From assembly GCF_006159205.1 (NCBI RefSeq), contig NZ_CP040812.1, forward strand, positions 868,001 through 932,000: a DNA stretch of 64,000 nucleotides. Reading direction: 5' to 3'. The translations under genes were made by a program, and so were the position numbers. The notes beneath the pieces were generated by a model. That model was not told the origin of the DNA. It searched no databases and saw only the letters and a list, made by a program, of their open reading frames with translations. Shown here piece after piece: positions 34,536-40,916 of this stretch (its first letter is position 1; the number at the start of each line of letters is the position of its first letter). This stretch comes from Antarcticibacterium flavum (GTDB lineage: Bacteria; Bacteroidota; Bacteroidia; Flavobacteriales; Flavobacteriaceae).

Positions 34536-35831
34536 TCACCTCAGCAAGAAGGATTTTAGATCTTCATAAGTGCTTATTTTTTCTGCCTTCTTTTCGCTGT
34601 TCATAATATCTGCAATTGCCGAAGGGATCTCAATTTCCCGGCCTGTAGCTTCCTTAACGGTGTCGGCAAATTTTACGGGATGAGCCGTTTCCAGGAAAAC
34701 GCCGTAAAAATCCTTGTTCTTTTTCAAAAAAGATCTTAGACCCAAATATCCTACCGCACCATGTGGATCCATAATATAATTGGAATTGTGATAAACCGCC
34801 TTCATTGCATCTTTTGTAAGGTCATCATCAAAACTGAAGGCTGATAGTTTTTTTTTGAGGGATTCCATGTTATTTTCGAACATCTCCAGGATCCTGACAA
34901 AGTTACTGGGATTCCCAACATCCATCGCATTGGAGATAGTAGCAACACTAGGCTGGTCTGAAAACTTACCCGATGAAAGGAATGCCGGCACCACATCATT
35001 GGCATTGGTGGATGCGACAAAATGGTCTATGGGGAGGCCCATTTCAGCAGCCATTAAACCGGCACAAATATTACCGAAATTCCCACTGGGTATTGAGAAT
35101 ACCAATTTTTTATTCTTTTCCTTCAGGTCTTTCCAGGCCAGAAAATAGTAGAACATTTGAGGTAACCAGCGGGCTATATTGATAGAGTTGGCAGAAGTTA
35201 ACTGTACCTTTTCTGTAACCTCCCTGTCCAGAAAAGCGGTTTTAACCATATCCTGGCATTCATCAAAAGCCCCGTCTACCTCCAGGGCAGTGATATTCCT
35301 GCCCAGCGTAGTAAGCTGCCGCTCCTGCAGCTCACTCACTTTGCCAGATGGATAAAGGATCACCACCTTAATGCCTTCCACTCCCAAAAATCCATTCGCA
35401 ACAGCACCTCCAGTGTCTCCAGATGTGGCCACCAGAACTGTAACCTCTCCCCCGGTCCCTTTTTTAATGAAATATTCCAGGCAACCGGCCATGAATTTTG
35501 CACCTACATCCTTAAATGCAAGTGTGGGCCCATGAAATAATTCAAGCACACTTACATTAGGTTCCAGCTCATTTACCGGAAAATCAAAGTCCAGTGTCTT
35601 TTCAATAATATCGATTAGAGCTTCTTCAGGAATTTCCTCTCCTATGAAAGGTGAAATTACCTCTTTAGCTATTTCTGTAGAGGAAAAAATAGATATCTCC
35701 TCAAAAAAAGATGCAGGTAATCGCGGAATTTTCTTCGGAAAGAACAAACCTCTGTCACGTGCTATGCCCTGTACCACCGCCTCTTCAAAACTTGCAGTTA
35801 TTGAATGATCATTCAGACTAAAATATCTCAT
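34536..35831 (-). CDS. thrC: Threonine synthase
   Basis: 431 residues, usual for the bacterial class. The PLP lysine is in GPTLAFKDVGAKFM (about residue 109), and the phosphate-binding Gly-rich loop and SGDTGGAV are present. It converts O-phospho-homoserine to threonine. It is the last gene of the thr operon, starting 25 bases after thrB. Confidence 0.96.
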   Translation of the reverse strand: MRYFSLNDHSITASFEEAVVQGIARDRGLFFPKKIPRLPASFFEEISIFSSTEIAKEVISPFIGEEIPEEALIDIIEKTLDFDFPVNELEPNVSVLELFHGPTLAFKDVGAKFMAGCLEYFIKKGTGGEVTVLVATSGDTGGAVANGFLGVEGIKVVILYPSGKVSELQERQLTTLGRNITALEVDGAFDECQDMVKTAFLDREVTEKVQLTSANSINIARWLPQMFYYFLAWKDLKEKNKKLVFSIPSGNFGNICAGLMAAEMGLPIDHFVASTNANDVVPAFLSSGKFSDQPSVATISNAMDVGNPSNFVRILEMFENNMESLKKKLSAFSFDDDLTKDAMKAVYHNSNYIMDPHGAVGYLGLRSFLKKNKDFYGVFLETAHPVKFADTVKEATGREIEIPSAIADIMNSEKKAEKISTYEDLKSFLLR

Positions 35832-35856: not shown

Positions 35857-36777
35857 TCATAGCACTTTTACACCTTCTGTATTAATAGCCGAAAGGTGAA
35901 GGTCAAATTCTATTCCTGTAGAATGATAAAACTCTCCAATAGCATTTTTCACCCTCGAGGCATTTTCATCTCCCCGGCATAAAGCAAAGACAGAAGGCCC
36001 GGAGCCGGAAATGCCATAACCCAGTGCGCCGTTTTCCACAGCTACCTTTTTTATCTCGTCAAAATAAGGAATAAGAATGGATCTTATGGGCTCAATAACC
36101 CCATCAACAAGGCTTCTACCCAGGAGATCATAATCATTCGTGTAAAGGGCACTTACCAGGGCCCCGAGATTTCCCCACTGGCTCACTGCACTTTTAAGAC
36201 TTATTGACTGCCGCAGGATAGCACGGGAGTCCTGTGTTTTTATTTCAATGAGAGGATGTAAAATTACCATTCTGAGTTCCCCGGGTGAGGGTAAACTTAT
36301 AACTTCCAACGGATCGTAACTTTTTACCAGGCTAAAGCCCCCCAGCAGTGCCGGTGCAACATTATCTGCATGCGCATTCCCGCTTGCCAGTTGCTCCCCT
36401 GCCATTGCAAACTTTATAAGCTGCTTCGCGGTATAAGGTTCACCCAGTAATTTATTTATGGCGAATACAGCTCCTGCAGCACTTGCGGCGCTACTGCCAA
36501 TTCCACTGCCTACTCTTATCTTTTTATCTATTTCAATATCGAACCCCTGTTTCTCTCCCAAATGATCCAGCATAACTTTTGCCGCTACCCCGGCTACGTT
36601 CTTATTGGTTTCCATAGGCAGATCCTGCCAGGTTATTTTGGTAATTCTTAATTCGCAGAGTTCATTTTTCTTAATGGTCATTTCATCTCCCACCGTATCC
36701 AGGCAACAGCCAAGAACATCAAAGCCACAGGAGAGGTTCGCAACAGTTGCCGGGGAAAAGATCTTTATTTCTTTCAT
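35857..36777 (-). CDS. thrB: Homoserine kinase
   Basis: 306 residues, GHMP kinase family. N-terminal PATVANLSCGFDVLG and the ATP-binding motif GSGIGSSAASAAGAV are visible, with the C-terminal GHMP motif GYGISGSGPSVFAL. It phosphorylates homoserine for ThrC. It is separated from thrA by about 490 bases holding a large imperfect inverted repeat, an unusual gap inside an otherwise tight operon. Confidence 0.96.
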   Translation of the reverse strand: MKEIKIFSPATVANLSCGFDVLGCCLDTVGDEMTIKKNELCELRITKITWQDLPMETNKNVAGVAAKVMLDHLGEKQGFDIEIDKKIRVGSGIGSSAASAAGAVFAINKLLGEPYTAKQLIKFAMAGEQLASGNAHADNVAPALLGGFSLVKSYDPLEVISLPSPGELRMVILHPLIEIKTQDSRAILRQSISLKSAVSQWGNLGALVSALYTNDYDLLGRSLVDGVIEPIRSILIPYFDEIKKVAVENGALGYGISGSGPSVFALCRGDENASRVKNAIGEFYHSTGIEFDLHLSAINTEGVKVL

Positions 36778-37264: not shown

Positions 37265-39712
37265 TTATTTTTTACCTATTCGTATTATATCTGCAAAGAT
37301 CCCCGAGGCAGTGACCTCTGCCCCGGCGCCCGCTCCTTTTACTATTAATGGCTGTTCAGGATACCTGCCGGTAAAGAAAAGCACAATGTTGTCGCTCCCG
37401 CTAAGGTCATAAAATGGATGAGCCGGCCCAACTTCCTGTAATCCTACTTTTGCCTTTCCGTCTTCAAGCTGCGCGACATACTTTAATCTCTTTCCTTTTT
37501 CTGAAGCATTTCTGTATATTTCTTTAAACCGATCTTCTTCAGCCTTAAGGATCTCGAAGAATTCTTCATTGGAGGAGGCTCGTAGACTTTCTTCTGAAAG
37601 AAAATTCTCTTTTTCAATATCCTCCAGCTCCATCCTGTATCCACTCTCCCTGGCCAGGATAAGGATCTTCCTGGCAACGTCCACCCCACTTAGATCTATT
37701 CGTGGATCGGGTTCTGTATAACCTTCCTTCATCGCCATTTCCACCACCTTATAAAATGGTTCTGTCGCATTGTAAGTATTGAAAACAAAGTTGAGGCTGC
37801 CGGAGAGGACTGCCTGGATCTTGATGATATTGTCACCAGATGCCACCAGGTTCTTCAGCGTATCAATTATGGGAAGCCCTGCTCCCACATTGGTCTCATA
37901 TAAAAAGGAGGCACCGTATTCCCTGGCCAGGTCCTGCAGCTCCAGGTAATTCCTGAAATCATCAGAACAGGCGATCTTATTACAGGTAACCACAGAAACC
38001 GAATTCCTAAGGTATTCCTTATACCAGGAAGAGATCTCGGTACTGGCAGTGTTATCTACAAATATGCTATTGCGCAAATTAAAGCCATTCACTTTTTCAA
38101 GAAACTTTTCCTTATCTGCCTTCTCCCCATTTTCCAATTCGGCCTGCCACTTCTTTAGATCTATTCCCTCCTCATTAAAAACCATTTGCCTGGAATTTGA
38201 AAGGCCCATTACTCTCACCTTCAGCCTTAGTTTCTCTAAAAGGTACTCCCTCTGTTTTTCCAGTTGGCCTAAAAGTTTACTTCCCACATTTCCTACCCCG
38301 GTGATATACAAATTGAGTTCTTTAGATGGAACTTCAAAGAATTGCTCGTGAAGGGTATTAAGCGCTTTGGGAACATCCTTTTTTGATATCACGGCCGATA
38401 TATTTCTTTCGGAGGATCCCTGTGCAATAGCCCTTATGTTAATATTATTATTACCCAAAGCACTAAACATCTTACCGCTAAGCCCGTGGTGGCTTTTCAT
38501 CGCGTCTCCCACCAAAGCTACTATAGCCACATTCTCTTCTATCTCTACAGGCTTTATTTTTTTAAAGGAGATCTCTACTTCAAAGGCTTCATCCAGAGCC
38601 TCCTTTGCCAGCTGTGCCTCATCATCCTTAACCGCAACGCATATACTGTGCTCTGATGATGCCTGGGTGATGAGTACTACATTTATATTCTCCTGGAACA
38701 GGACCTCAAAAAAGCGCTTTGAAAATCCGGGGATACCTACCATCCCGCTACCCTCTATATTAAGTAGTTTCACAGCATCTATATGGGTGATCCCCGTTAC
38801 CCACCTGAAGTTCTCCCTGCTGGATTTTGAAATTGTTGTGCCTTCCCCGGCGGGATTAAAAGTGTTTTTAATATATATCTTAATATTTTTTTCCACCAGG
38901 GGCTGTAGAGTTGGGGGATAAAGAACCTTTGCCCCAAAATGAGAAAGTTCCATAGCCTCTTCATAAGAGATACTTTTAATAGGATATGCTTGTGGAACTA
39001 TGGAGGGATTTGCGGTATACATACCATCAACATCTGTATAAATATACACTTCCTCCACGTCTAAAGCTGCAGCAAAGATGGCGGCAGTGAAATCTGATCC
39101 TCCCCTTCCCAGGGTGCTGGGAACTCCCTGCTCATTCTTTGCAATGAACCCGGGTGCTATAAAAAGTGCCCCACCGGTGCTTTGAAAATGCTCTTTTATT
39201 TTATCATAGGTAAGTTTATAATTAACCTGCACTTTTTCGTTGTTATTCCTACAGGTAATAAAATCCCGGGAATCCAGGTATTGAGGATTCGCTTTCAGGC
39301 TATTAAAATACCCGTGTATGATAAGAGAGGAGAGGATTTCCCCAAAACCCGCCACCACATGTTTGGTTTTGTTGGAGAGCTCATTGAGGAGAAAAACACC
39401 TTCATATAAGGTTTCCAGGTGATTTAGCTCGGTTTTCACTTTGCTTAAAATCCCGCTTTGGGACTGTACAGGAAGTAGTTCCCTCACTGCGTCTAAATGT
39501 CTTTTTTCATTGGTAGCAAGAAGTTCTTTATAAGATCCATCTTCAGCGGCTGCCAACTCTGCCATTTTAAGCAAGTCATTTGTAACCCCTCCAAATGCTG
39601 AAAAAACTGCTATGACAGGATCACTTTGATGATGTTCAAGTACTATATTGGCGACATCCTTAATGCGCCGGGGAGAGGCCAGGGAAGAACCTCCAAATTT
39701 TAATATTTTCAT
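37265..39712 (-). CDS. thrA: Bifunctional aspartokinase I / homoserine dehydrogenase I
   Basis: 815 residues, the same length class as the E. coli ThrA. The aspartokinase domain (about 1-295) begins MKILKFGGSSLASPRRIK and has TDVDGMYTANP. Two ACT regulatory domains follow (about 315-455), then homoserine dehydrogenase (about 465-815) with the NAD(P) motif ITGVGNVGSKLL and the catalytic-region GLQEVGPAHPFYDLSGSDN. It catalyses the first and third steps from aspartate to threonine. It is preceded by a short Thr/Ile-rich reading frame and possible attenuator; feedback through the ACT domains is expected from the family. Confidence 0.96.
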   Translation of the reverse strand: MKILKFGGSSLASPRRIKDVANIVLEHHQSDPVIAVFSAFGGVTNDLLKMAELAAAEDGSYKELLATNEKRHLDAVRELLPVQSQSGILSKVKTELNHLETLYEGVFLLNELSNKTKHVVAGFGEILSSLIIHGYFNSLKANPQYLDSRDFITCRNNNEKVQVNYKLTYDKIKEHFQSTGGALFIAPGFIAKNEQGVPSTLGRGGSDFTAAIFAAALDVEEVYIYTDVDGMYTANPSIVPQAYPIKSISYEEAMELSHFGAKVLYPPTLQPLVEKNIKIYIKNTFNPAGEGTTISKSSRENFRWVTGITHIDAVKLLNIEGSGMVGIPGFSKRFFEVLFQENINVVLITQASSEHSICVAVKDDEAQLAKEALDEAFEVEISFKKIKPVEIEENVAIVALVGDAMKSHHGLSGKMFSALGNNNINIRAIAQGSSERNISAVISKKDVPKALNTLHEQFFEVPSKELNLYITGVGNVGSKLLGQLEKQREYLLEKLRLKVRVMGLSNSRQMVFNEEGIDLKKWQAELENGEKADKEKFLEKVNGFNLRNSIFVDNTASTEISSWYKEYLRNSVSVVTCNKIACSDDFRNYLELQDLAREYGASFLYETNVGAGLPIIDTLKNLVASGDNIIKIQAVLSGSLNFVFNTYNATEPFYKVVEMAMKEGYTEPDPRIDLSGVDVARKILILARESGYRMELEDIEKENFLSEESLRASSNEEFFEILKAEEDRFKEIYRNASEKGKRLKYVAQLEDGKAKVGLQEVGPAHPFYDLSGSDNIVLFFTGRYPEQPLIVKGAGAGAEVTASGIFADIIRIGKK

Positions 39713-39737
39713 GAGGAATATGTATTAAACAGTAAAT

Positions 39738-39801
39738 AAAAAATACAGGAATGTGTGGACCGGAAGTTATATCTATATTACCCCAAAGGGGTAATACCTG
39801 T
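39738..39801 (-). promoter_or_regulatory. Putative transcription attenuator of the thr operon
   Basis: On the transcript, ACAGG (within the Thr-Thr-Gly codons of the leader, 39797-39801) can pair with CCUGU (39745-39749), which runs directly into A-U6 (39738-39744). An inner hairpin AUUACCCC-UUU-GGGGUAAU (39777-39795) spans the leader stop codon. The outer stem is only five base pairs, so the terminator assignment is tentative. Confidence 0.45.
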
Positions 39802-39882
39802 TGTTACAATCATGATAATGGCAACCGTTACAAACGTAACAGTAGAAGTGAGTGCCTTATATTTTAATTGTAATTCTTGCAT
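39778..39882 (-). CDS. Putative thr operon leader peptide
   Basis: 34 codons from ATG 39882 to TAA 39778, ending 65 bases before thrA. It reads MQELQLKYKALTSTVTFVTV then AIIMIVTTGITPLG. Seven Thr, four Ile and four Val residues fall in residues 12-31. In E. coli the thr leader peptide is similarly dominated by Thr and Ile codons, and ribosome stalling there controls termination. The frame lies within the predicted thr transcript (promoter at 39904-39934), and a hairpin overlaps its stop. An alternative is a small membrane peptide, as the same residues are hydrophobic. Confidence 0.6.
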   Translation of the reverse strand: MQELQLKYKALTSTVTFVTVAIIMIVTTGITPLG

Positions 39883-39903
39883 TATTTGTTTTAATACAGG
39901 TGA

Positions 39904-39934
39904 TAAATGTAGCCATAAAAGGCTGTAAAACAAA
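39904..39934 (-). promoter_or_regulatory. Bacteroidota-type promoter of the thr operon
   Basis: On the minus strand TTTG (39931-39934), a 19-base spacer, then TACATTTA (39904-39911), one mismatch to TAnnTTTG. Transcription would start near 39897, about 15 bases before the leader ATG. Confidence 0.6.
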
Positions 39935-40640
39935 TGTTTTTAAAAGTATTTCAGGAAATTTACAGAATACTTATTTCCTGAAGATTATTTTCTGAATATG
40001 ATAAAAAACTCCAGGGATAATTTCGGAAAAGAAAAAACGTAGAAGATAGAAAACTCAATTAAACACTATTGTCCGGTAAAAGATTCCAGATCGCTTTCGC
40101 TGCTGGAACCTAGAATCCAGACCAAAACCTAAGGGTATGGAAAATAGTCGTTTGCCATTTTTTAAAAAATTTGAATTTCCCGGAACTATTTCAGATCCAA
40201 AACCACCCCCAGGTTGAGGTGGATATGTATTCAGACTATATAGATTAGGCCTAAGGAAAATTTTAAATACTTTAATCGGACACCAATGAATAAAAAAGAA
40301 AATCCCTCCATGGACCTTCAGGGTTTCTCGTCAACAGAAGCCGGAATGATTAAGATAATTCATGCTCGTTTGATTATTCAACCTGGCAGGACTCCTCGCG
40401 ATGACCAAACGGGCTCGCTTTTCCTTGTTTAGACCTACCAGGTTTTTTCTTTCAGGAGTGGGATTAAACAACAATTTTTGTCTTTCTAAGGAACTAAACC
40501 TGGCAGGTCTCTCTCGCTCGGAAACCCTCTATTAAAAGGATCTTTCTACCCGATTAATTCTGACTTTACAAAATGAATCACGATGCTGATTCTCCTGCTT
40601 AAATTGATCTAATCACCTGGTTAACAAAAAATCACAATCA

Positions 40641-40671: not shown

Positions 40672-40817
40672 TCTTCCTAAGACGATTTACTTATGAGTGC
40701 CCACCCGTCAAGGCTCTAGACTCTAGACTCTAGAATCCAGCCTCCGCTTGTAGGTAAAATTTTCTGGTATAAGACAAATAAACTCCAGCCTCTAGCAGCT
40801 TTTTCTCTTCTCTCTTC

Positions 40818-40894
40818 TCTTGATTCTTGACTCTTGTTTCTTGTTTCTTGTTTCTTGTTTCTTGTCTCTTGTTTCTTGTCTCTTGTTTCTTGTT
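40818..40894. repeat. Tandem heptamer array TCTTGTT, 11 units
   Basis: Eleven consecutive 7-base units TCTTGNN, seven of them exactly TCTTGTT and two TCTTGTC, ending 22 bases before the stop codon of the AAA ATPase gene. Candidate variable-number repeat. Confidence 0.85.
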
Positions 40895-40916
40895 TCTTTT
40901 TTCCCGGTTCTTCCTT

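Follow-up and report, generated by a model that had tools for sequence, protein, structure and literature searches.

In Escherichia coli, thrL encodes a leader peptide rich in Thr and Ile upstream of thrA, and stalling on this peptide senses charged tRNA. Rho-dependent leader-ORF systems include tnaC, mgtL and corL. Candidate attenuators in Bacteroidetes/Chlorobi were reportedly mentioned by Vitreschak et al. in 2004 (FEMS Microbiol Lett). According to passages of PMC7815308, premature termination by Rho in the E. coli systems mdtU-mdtJI and speFL is controlled through a short translated frame; that of mdtU comprises 34 codons and stops 106 nt ahead of the gene. Passages of PMC9723704 give clues for leader-peptide attenuation of amino-acid biosynthesis operons in Flavobacterium psychrophilum. 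The method of PMC2965389 misses Rho-dependent cases by its own account, and a passage of that paper knows of a single such attenuator described up to that time. Attenuator screens often begin with an intrinsic terminator, and a widespread terminator-less thrA leader would escape them. No earlier report of such a leader was found in our search of the open-access literature.

The window is the whole stretch of DNA that was analysed (64,000 nt). All leader elements are located on its minus strand together with thrA, thrB and thrC, and the thrA ATG is at 39712 (Table 1). Comparative sequence analysis indicates that the region is very probably a ribosome-mediated attenuator of thrABC, in which threonine is sensed via a translated leader peptide; this grade refers to the control as a whole and not to a Rho step. 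The reading is based on the promoter, the Thr-dominated last codons, the stop-codon hairpin, the motif behind it and the stretch with more C than G. Positions 39500–40200 gave no Rfam match up to an E-value of 5, including the gamma-proteobacterial Thr_leader, and the leader region matched no described Rfam family of T-boxes or riboswitches.

Table 1. Features of the thr leader and the thrABC operon (positions in the window)
Feature	Position	Strand	Basis
Promoter-like TTTG (39931–39934), N19, TACATTTA (39904–39911)	39904..39934	minus	Sequence; Bacteroidota -33/-7 type
Leader peptide frame, 34 codons + TAA, Thr-rich toward the C-terminal end (TTGITPLG); ATG 39882–39880, stop TAA 39780–39778	39778..39882	minus	Sequence; Thr enrichment in relatives
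ACAGG (39797–39801)/CCTGT (39745–39749) stem, then A and T6 (39743–39738); candidate terminator of the earlier note	39738..39801	minus	Predicted fold; not conserved
Perfect 9-bp hairpin TATTACCCC-TTT-GGGGTAATA that takes in the stop codon of the leader (39778–39780)	39776..39796	minus	Predicted fold; relatives; alignment A1
This genome's form (GATATAACTTCC) of the post-hairpin motif	39762..39773	minus	ATAT-N1-4-YYC pattern
Leader stop to thrA ATG, 65 nt, 14 C and 5 G; putative Rho loading region	39713..39777	minus	C>G in relatives
thrA, bifunctional aspartate kinase/homoserine dehydrogenase I	37265..39712	minus	NF006959, 1057.6 bits (cut-off 726)
thrB, homoserine kinase	35857..36777	minus	TIGR00191 and NF002288 over cut-off
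thrC, threonine synthase	34536..35831	minus	TIGR00260 over cut-off

The sequences compared came from 80 named thrA loci and from loci of the genus and the family, the latter two groups making up 119 upstream regions. The named loci are the nearest ones by thrA and an uneven sample, from which L027 was dropped (its match was not at the protein start). A CCC/GGG hairpin of at least 5 bp was missing in 27 of 137 flavobacterial sequences. The remaining 110 rows take in 18 named loci, minus the hairpin-less ones, and some rows are labelled only Bacteroidetes. Seven of the 110 rows were removed for the tests on 103 rows, six of them named by hand and the rest by a filter that asked for an AT-rich stretch after the hairpin. 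Alignment A1 has 94 rows, as nine of the 103 were left out as near-duplicates by eye. L026 and L123 look identical.

The leader peptide is MQELQLKYKALTSTVTFVTVAIIMIVTTGITPLG, with seven Thr, four Val and four Ile, and it had no match in Pfam or NCBIfam. The earlier note had described this 34-codon frame before thrA, and the frame held up: a short upstream frame with at least four Thr in 12 codons was found in 85 of the 119 regions, compared with three on the reverse strand and 4.0 in shuffled sequences. At a stricter threshold (at least five Thr in 12 codons), the count was 55 of 119 vs zero in both controls. Among the named loci, 60 of 79 had a Thr-rich short frame (reverse strand: 0; shuffles: 4.0). 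Such a frame with at least four Thr was absent from 34 of the 119 regions, and Thr runs were weaker in close relatives, e.g. L006 and L087–L093. In a survey of the class, 37 of 158 genomes gave a match, and about eight of 19 loci (L232–L250 of L232–L257) had a Thr-type leader by eye.

The residue most clearly above both controls was Thr, and no other was so clear. Frames rich in Leu numbered 67 in the 119 regions (32 on the reverse strand, 37.7 shuffled) and frames rich in Ile 43 (41 and 26.0), and Val stood out just on the reverse strand (44 of 119). The crowding of Thr, Ile and Val codons that had been noted before was thus borne out for Thr, less so for Ile and not for Val, as the 16 codons before the hairpin comprised 31.6% Thr, 14.2% Ile and 3.3% Val in frames that were chosen by the highest Thr content, which favours Thr. 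All four Thr codons were in use (ACA: 204; ACC: 181; ACT: 171; ACG: 58). Alignment of the short frame had been suggested as a check by the earlier note; outside its C-terminal end the peptide proved not to be conserved, and its N-terminal part could not be aligned even between members of the genus. Judging from these comparisons, the frame is real and most likely a Thr-sensing leader peptide. Isoleucine is perhaps a weaker input.

The promoter that had been proposed was present, and its box is widespread. Of 103 relatives, 101 had TAnnTTT[GA] at a distance of 40–170 nt upstream from the hairpin (34.9 shuffled), and 63 had TTG-N17-23-TAnnTTT (10.2 shuffled). The -7 consensus is given as TAnnTTTG in a passage of PMC9723704. 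Further upstream of the thr leader, at 40802–40903, the window contains tandem TCTCTTG/TCTTGTT units with periods of 7 and 21 bases and up to 13.9 copies.

The hairpin over the stop codon was likewise corroborated. In 73 of the 85 Thr-rich frames, no more than 18 nt separated the stop from a hairpin with at least five pairs, three of them G-C, compared with 4.85 in shuffled sequences. The 181-nt leader RNA had a better predicted fold than any of 200 dinucleotide shuffles (z -3.07). Stem covariation, with A-U in place of C-G at position 4, is not taken as proof, since the rows were preselected for a stem of at least 5 bp. The variant ACGGGG-UAA-YCCCGU was seen by eye in L048, L063, L064, L076 and L081, in several cases followed by CAUAU-N-GCCCC.

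A long-range pairing between the leader start and the downstream motif (ACGGAC/GUCCGU) was considered as a family-wide element and rejected, with a mean z of -0.21 when species were swapped and a z below -2 in three of 103 relatives. By count, it was present in 15 of 103 vs 3.6 shuffled (largest shuffle: 9), and it may hold in one subclade. Letters resembling ACGGAC close to the start of the leader, which complement GUCCGU in the motif, were seen in L102, L121, L125, L132, L133, L141, L007 and L010; L133 has the pairing changed on both sides (UGGACA/UGUCCA).

Between the hairpin and thrA, the pattern ATAT-N1-4-YYC followed within 30 nt in 72 of 103 relatives vs 7.2 shuffled, a count that the earlier filter for an AT-rich stretch at this place somewhat favours. 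The stretch up to thrA had 18.0% C and 7.4% G in the relatives. C exceeded G in 102 of 103, compared with 53 of 100 control stretches upstream and with 10 of 22 and 12 of 23 in two sets of other 5' regions (the former from the window, the latter from the same loci). After his leaders the count was 3 of 28, where the stretches run into the terminator region. In segments of 45 nt, C exceeded G in 98 of 103 thr leaders, compared with 3 of the 28 his leaders. More C than G is known from Rho loading sites. The rho gene was found at one place in the genome (PF07497 over cut-off).

A second hairpin was counted in part of the family. At least seven Watson-Crick pairs between the first hairpin and thrA were found in 29 of 103 relatives (6.4 shuffled) and at least eight pairs in 19 of 103 (1.7 shuffled). 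Some of the relatives thus do not have a fully open strand. The second hairpin is AT-rich (19% G+C in the 5' arm), and its arms vary among rows: TTGTAATT, TGTGTTT, GTTTGAAT and TCTTGTTT, each with its complement. Examples (TTGTAATT..AATTACAA and variants) are L143, L154, L159, L174, L184, L098 and L150. As to how a stalled ribosome might oppose Rho, predicted partners of the G-run that it would free fell on the YYC motif in 134 of 329 cases vs 17% in shuffled sequences; the strength of this duplex was not above shuffled (z +0.38), and the stalled-state fold was nothing special (z +0.23).

The earlier note had pointed to ACAGG/CCUGU as a possible stem running into A-U6; as an intrinsic terminator, it would make the locus a textbook attenuator with the terminator stem enclosing the stop-codon hairpin. 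The letters are there, the stem is part of the minimum-energy fold and both the his and the trp leader in this genome are followed by intrinsic terminators, yet the stem has just 5 bp, encloses 47 nt and did not prove to be conserved. Stems of this sort occurred in four of 103 relatives vs 1.27 shuffled (largest shuffle: 5), and ACAGG itself was confined to this genome among the 103 rows; as a conserved terminator, the stem was rejected. A canonical terminator of any sequence was found in two of the 110 flavobacterial thr leaders, vs 1.4 shuffled, and in none at stricter thresholds. The same detector found one in 24 of 28 family his leaders and in 24 of 26 thr leaders of the Mucilaginibacter type, a set picked by eye after the sequences had been seen. 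A mutually exclusive pair of antiterminator and intrinsic terminator was not found in the flavobacterial thr leaders, where the alternative duplex did not exceed shuffled strength. Altogether, we regard the textbook form as quite improbable here.

Transcription might also end without Rho in a non-canonical way, if the stop-codon hairpin, or the second hairpin where it is present, served as a signal for pausing or release despite lacking a proper U-tract. YA[TG]A lay 4–10 nt from the first hairpin in 82 of the 98 motif-bearing rows (110 rows in all), and the over-represented second hairpin ends ~40 nt before thrA in most of its 29 rows. Moreover, T6 runs after the first hairpin were mildly enriched (39 of 103 vs 18.1 shuffled), so that a weak U-tract terminator is conceivable. 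However, alignment A1 has no U-tract directly past the first hairpin, at least five T in the 7 nt past the second hairpin were found in only 4 of 29 rows and this genome's own locus has no second hairpin, so that this explanation is unlikely. Slightly less likely still would be translational control or mRNA decay, by which leader stalling would alter how accessible the thrA start or how stable the mRNA is, with no premature termination; we hold it to be distinctly unlikely. It would fit the lack of a conserved intrinsic terminator, the short distance from the hairpin end to thrA (<140 nt in nearly all rows, range 52–176) and the hairpin ~40 nt before thrA in some relatives, but no stem above 4 bp lies between the hairpin and thrA in this genome. 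A random open frame without function in an AT-rich upstream region would explain why the peptide is not conserved outside its C-terminal end. As Thr enrichment, hairpin position and promoter box were far above the reverse-strand and shuffle controls, chance is largely refuted and is, in our estimate, extremely improbable.

We therefore return to the ribosome-mediated attenuator. When charged tRNA-Thr is scarce, the ribosome would stall on the Thr codons and mask the hairpin's 5' arm, and expression of thrABC would follow. When Thr is ample, the ribosome would reach the stop codon and leave, the hairpin would form and transcription would end before or early in thrA. Since no conserved intrinsic terminator was found, Rho, acting on the strand with more C than G, would be the candidate for making the transcript end in Flavobacteriaceae. 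Rho is also suggested because the stop-codon hairpin, the ATAT-YYC motif and the excess of C over G up to thrA are common to the family. Within the attenuator reading, a Rho-made premature end in Flavobacteriaceae thr leaders is possible, and we would sooner doubt it than assume it; our estimate was already below even and was lowered a little because the second hairpin was counted in relatives. The fuller claim, that the Flavobacteriaceae threonine operon has a Rho-dependent amino-acid attenuator whose stop-codon hairpin, once formed, leaves the strand for Rho, is put forward tentatively and is rather unlikely to hold in all its parts.

Leader peptides were also found at other operons of the same genome. 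MRTIQLHHHHFYYCAQAR stands before hisG and MKIQNVHTWWWNNLRQHVVK before trpE, and behind each of them come a hairpin containing GC and a T-run. The His (HHHH) leader lies at L224 C1:378905-379369 and the Trp (WWW) leader at L227 C1:3228219-3228656, with intrinsic terminators before hisG and trpE. A His-run leader was present in 28 of 30 family hisG loci inspected, the best-scoring 30 of 55 matches. Hence, leader-peptide control of amino-acid operons is not unusual here. The region upstream of ilvD in this genome had no comparable leader. The ilvD gene itself (L225/L226, C1:1052462-1053414) was matched in two pieces in different frames (open frames of 376 and 217 codons); it looks frame-split, either by a sequencing error or as a broken gene. 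At 40098–40117 on the minus strand, the window has its sole match to GATTCTAGGTTCCAGCAGCG; a similar stretch occurs before ilvD in L226, and GATTCTAGGTTCCAGCAGCG may therefore be a dispersed repeat.

A model of the hairpin and motif (R1) was searched in 60 family genomes. At E<0.01, there were 27 matches, all just upstream of thrA; 25 were placed by known loci and two by tblastn, and many of the searched genomes had also given rows to the model. Sharing of the hairpin-plus-motif by other operons is unsupported in this search. Up to E 0.5, there were 37 matches in 36 of the 60 genomes; beyond the 27, six were at thrA by position and four were not placed at thrA. The other 24 genomes had no match at this threshold, in a search that scored 97 candidates per genome and could miss further sites. 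When this genome itself was searched by pattern, its two strands yielded 62 and 40 matches vs 33 and 13 in the control, mostly other GC hairpins.

Compared with the enterobacterial thr leader (thrL; Rfam Thr_leader), the flavobacterial leader has the same kind of Thr/Ile-rich peptide directly upstream of the aspartate kinase/homoserine dehydrogenase I gene thrA, and it would likewise sense charged tRNA through a stalled ribosome. It differs in having no Rfam match, no conserved intrinsic terminator and a hairpin on the leader stop codon. Of the likeness drawn by the earlier note, the Thr-codon peptide with its own promoter before thrABC remains, and the intrinsic terminator and the role of Val do not. 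The report on F. psychrophilum concerns the same family, amino-acid operons and leader peptides; the passages of PMC9723704 differ in that they name no gene and hold no terminator analysis. The mdtU-mdtJI and speFL leaders respond to spermidine or ornithine, not to charged tRNA-Thr (passages of PMC7815308), and Rho is proposed here from base composition alone.

The closest contrast is with Mucilaginibacter, Pedobacter and similar organisms (26 named loci between L034 and L084), which have a Thr-rich leader before the same thrA. Their leaders differ by having the textbook form, in which pairing is possible between GGAGGAAG, at the end of the leader, and a terminator's 5' arm (CCTTCCTC..GAGGAAGG and a T run). 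In L037, L040, L044, L054 and L062, for instance, GGAGGAAG at the frame end could pair with the terminator 5' arm CTTCCTCC, a textbook antiterminator/terminator pair. The sensor part of the flavobacterial leader is of a known kind, and its terminator-less output is the new part. The thr and his leaders of one family have the sensor in common but not the output part, which makes for a clean comparison. If Rho does make the end, the output part of an attenuator would have been swapped under an unchanged sensor, while the his leaders and the Mucilaginibacter-type thr leaders keep their intrinsic terminators.
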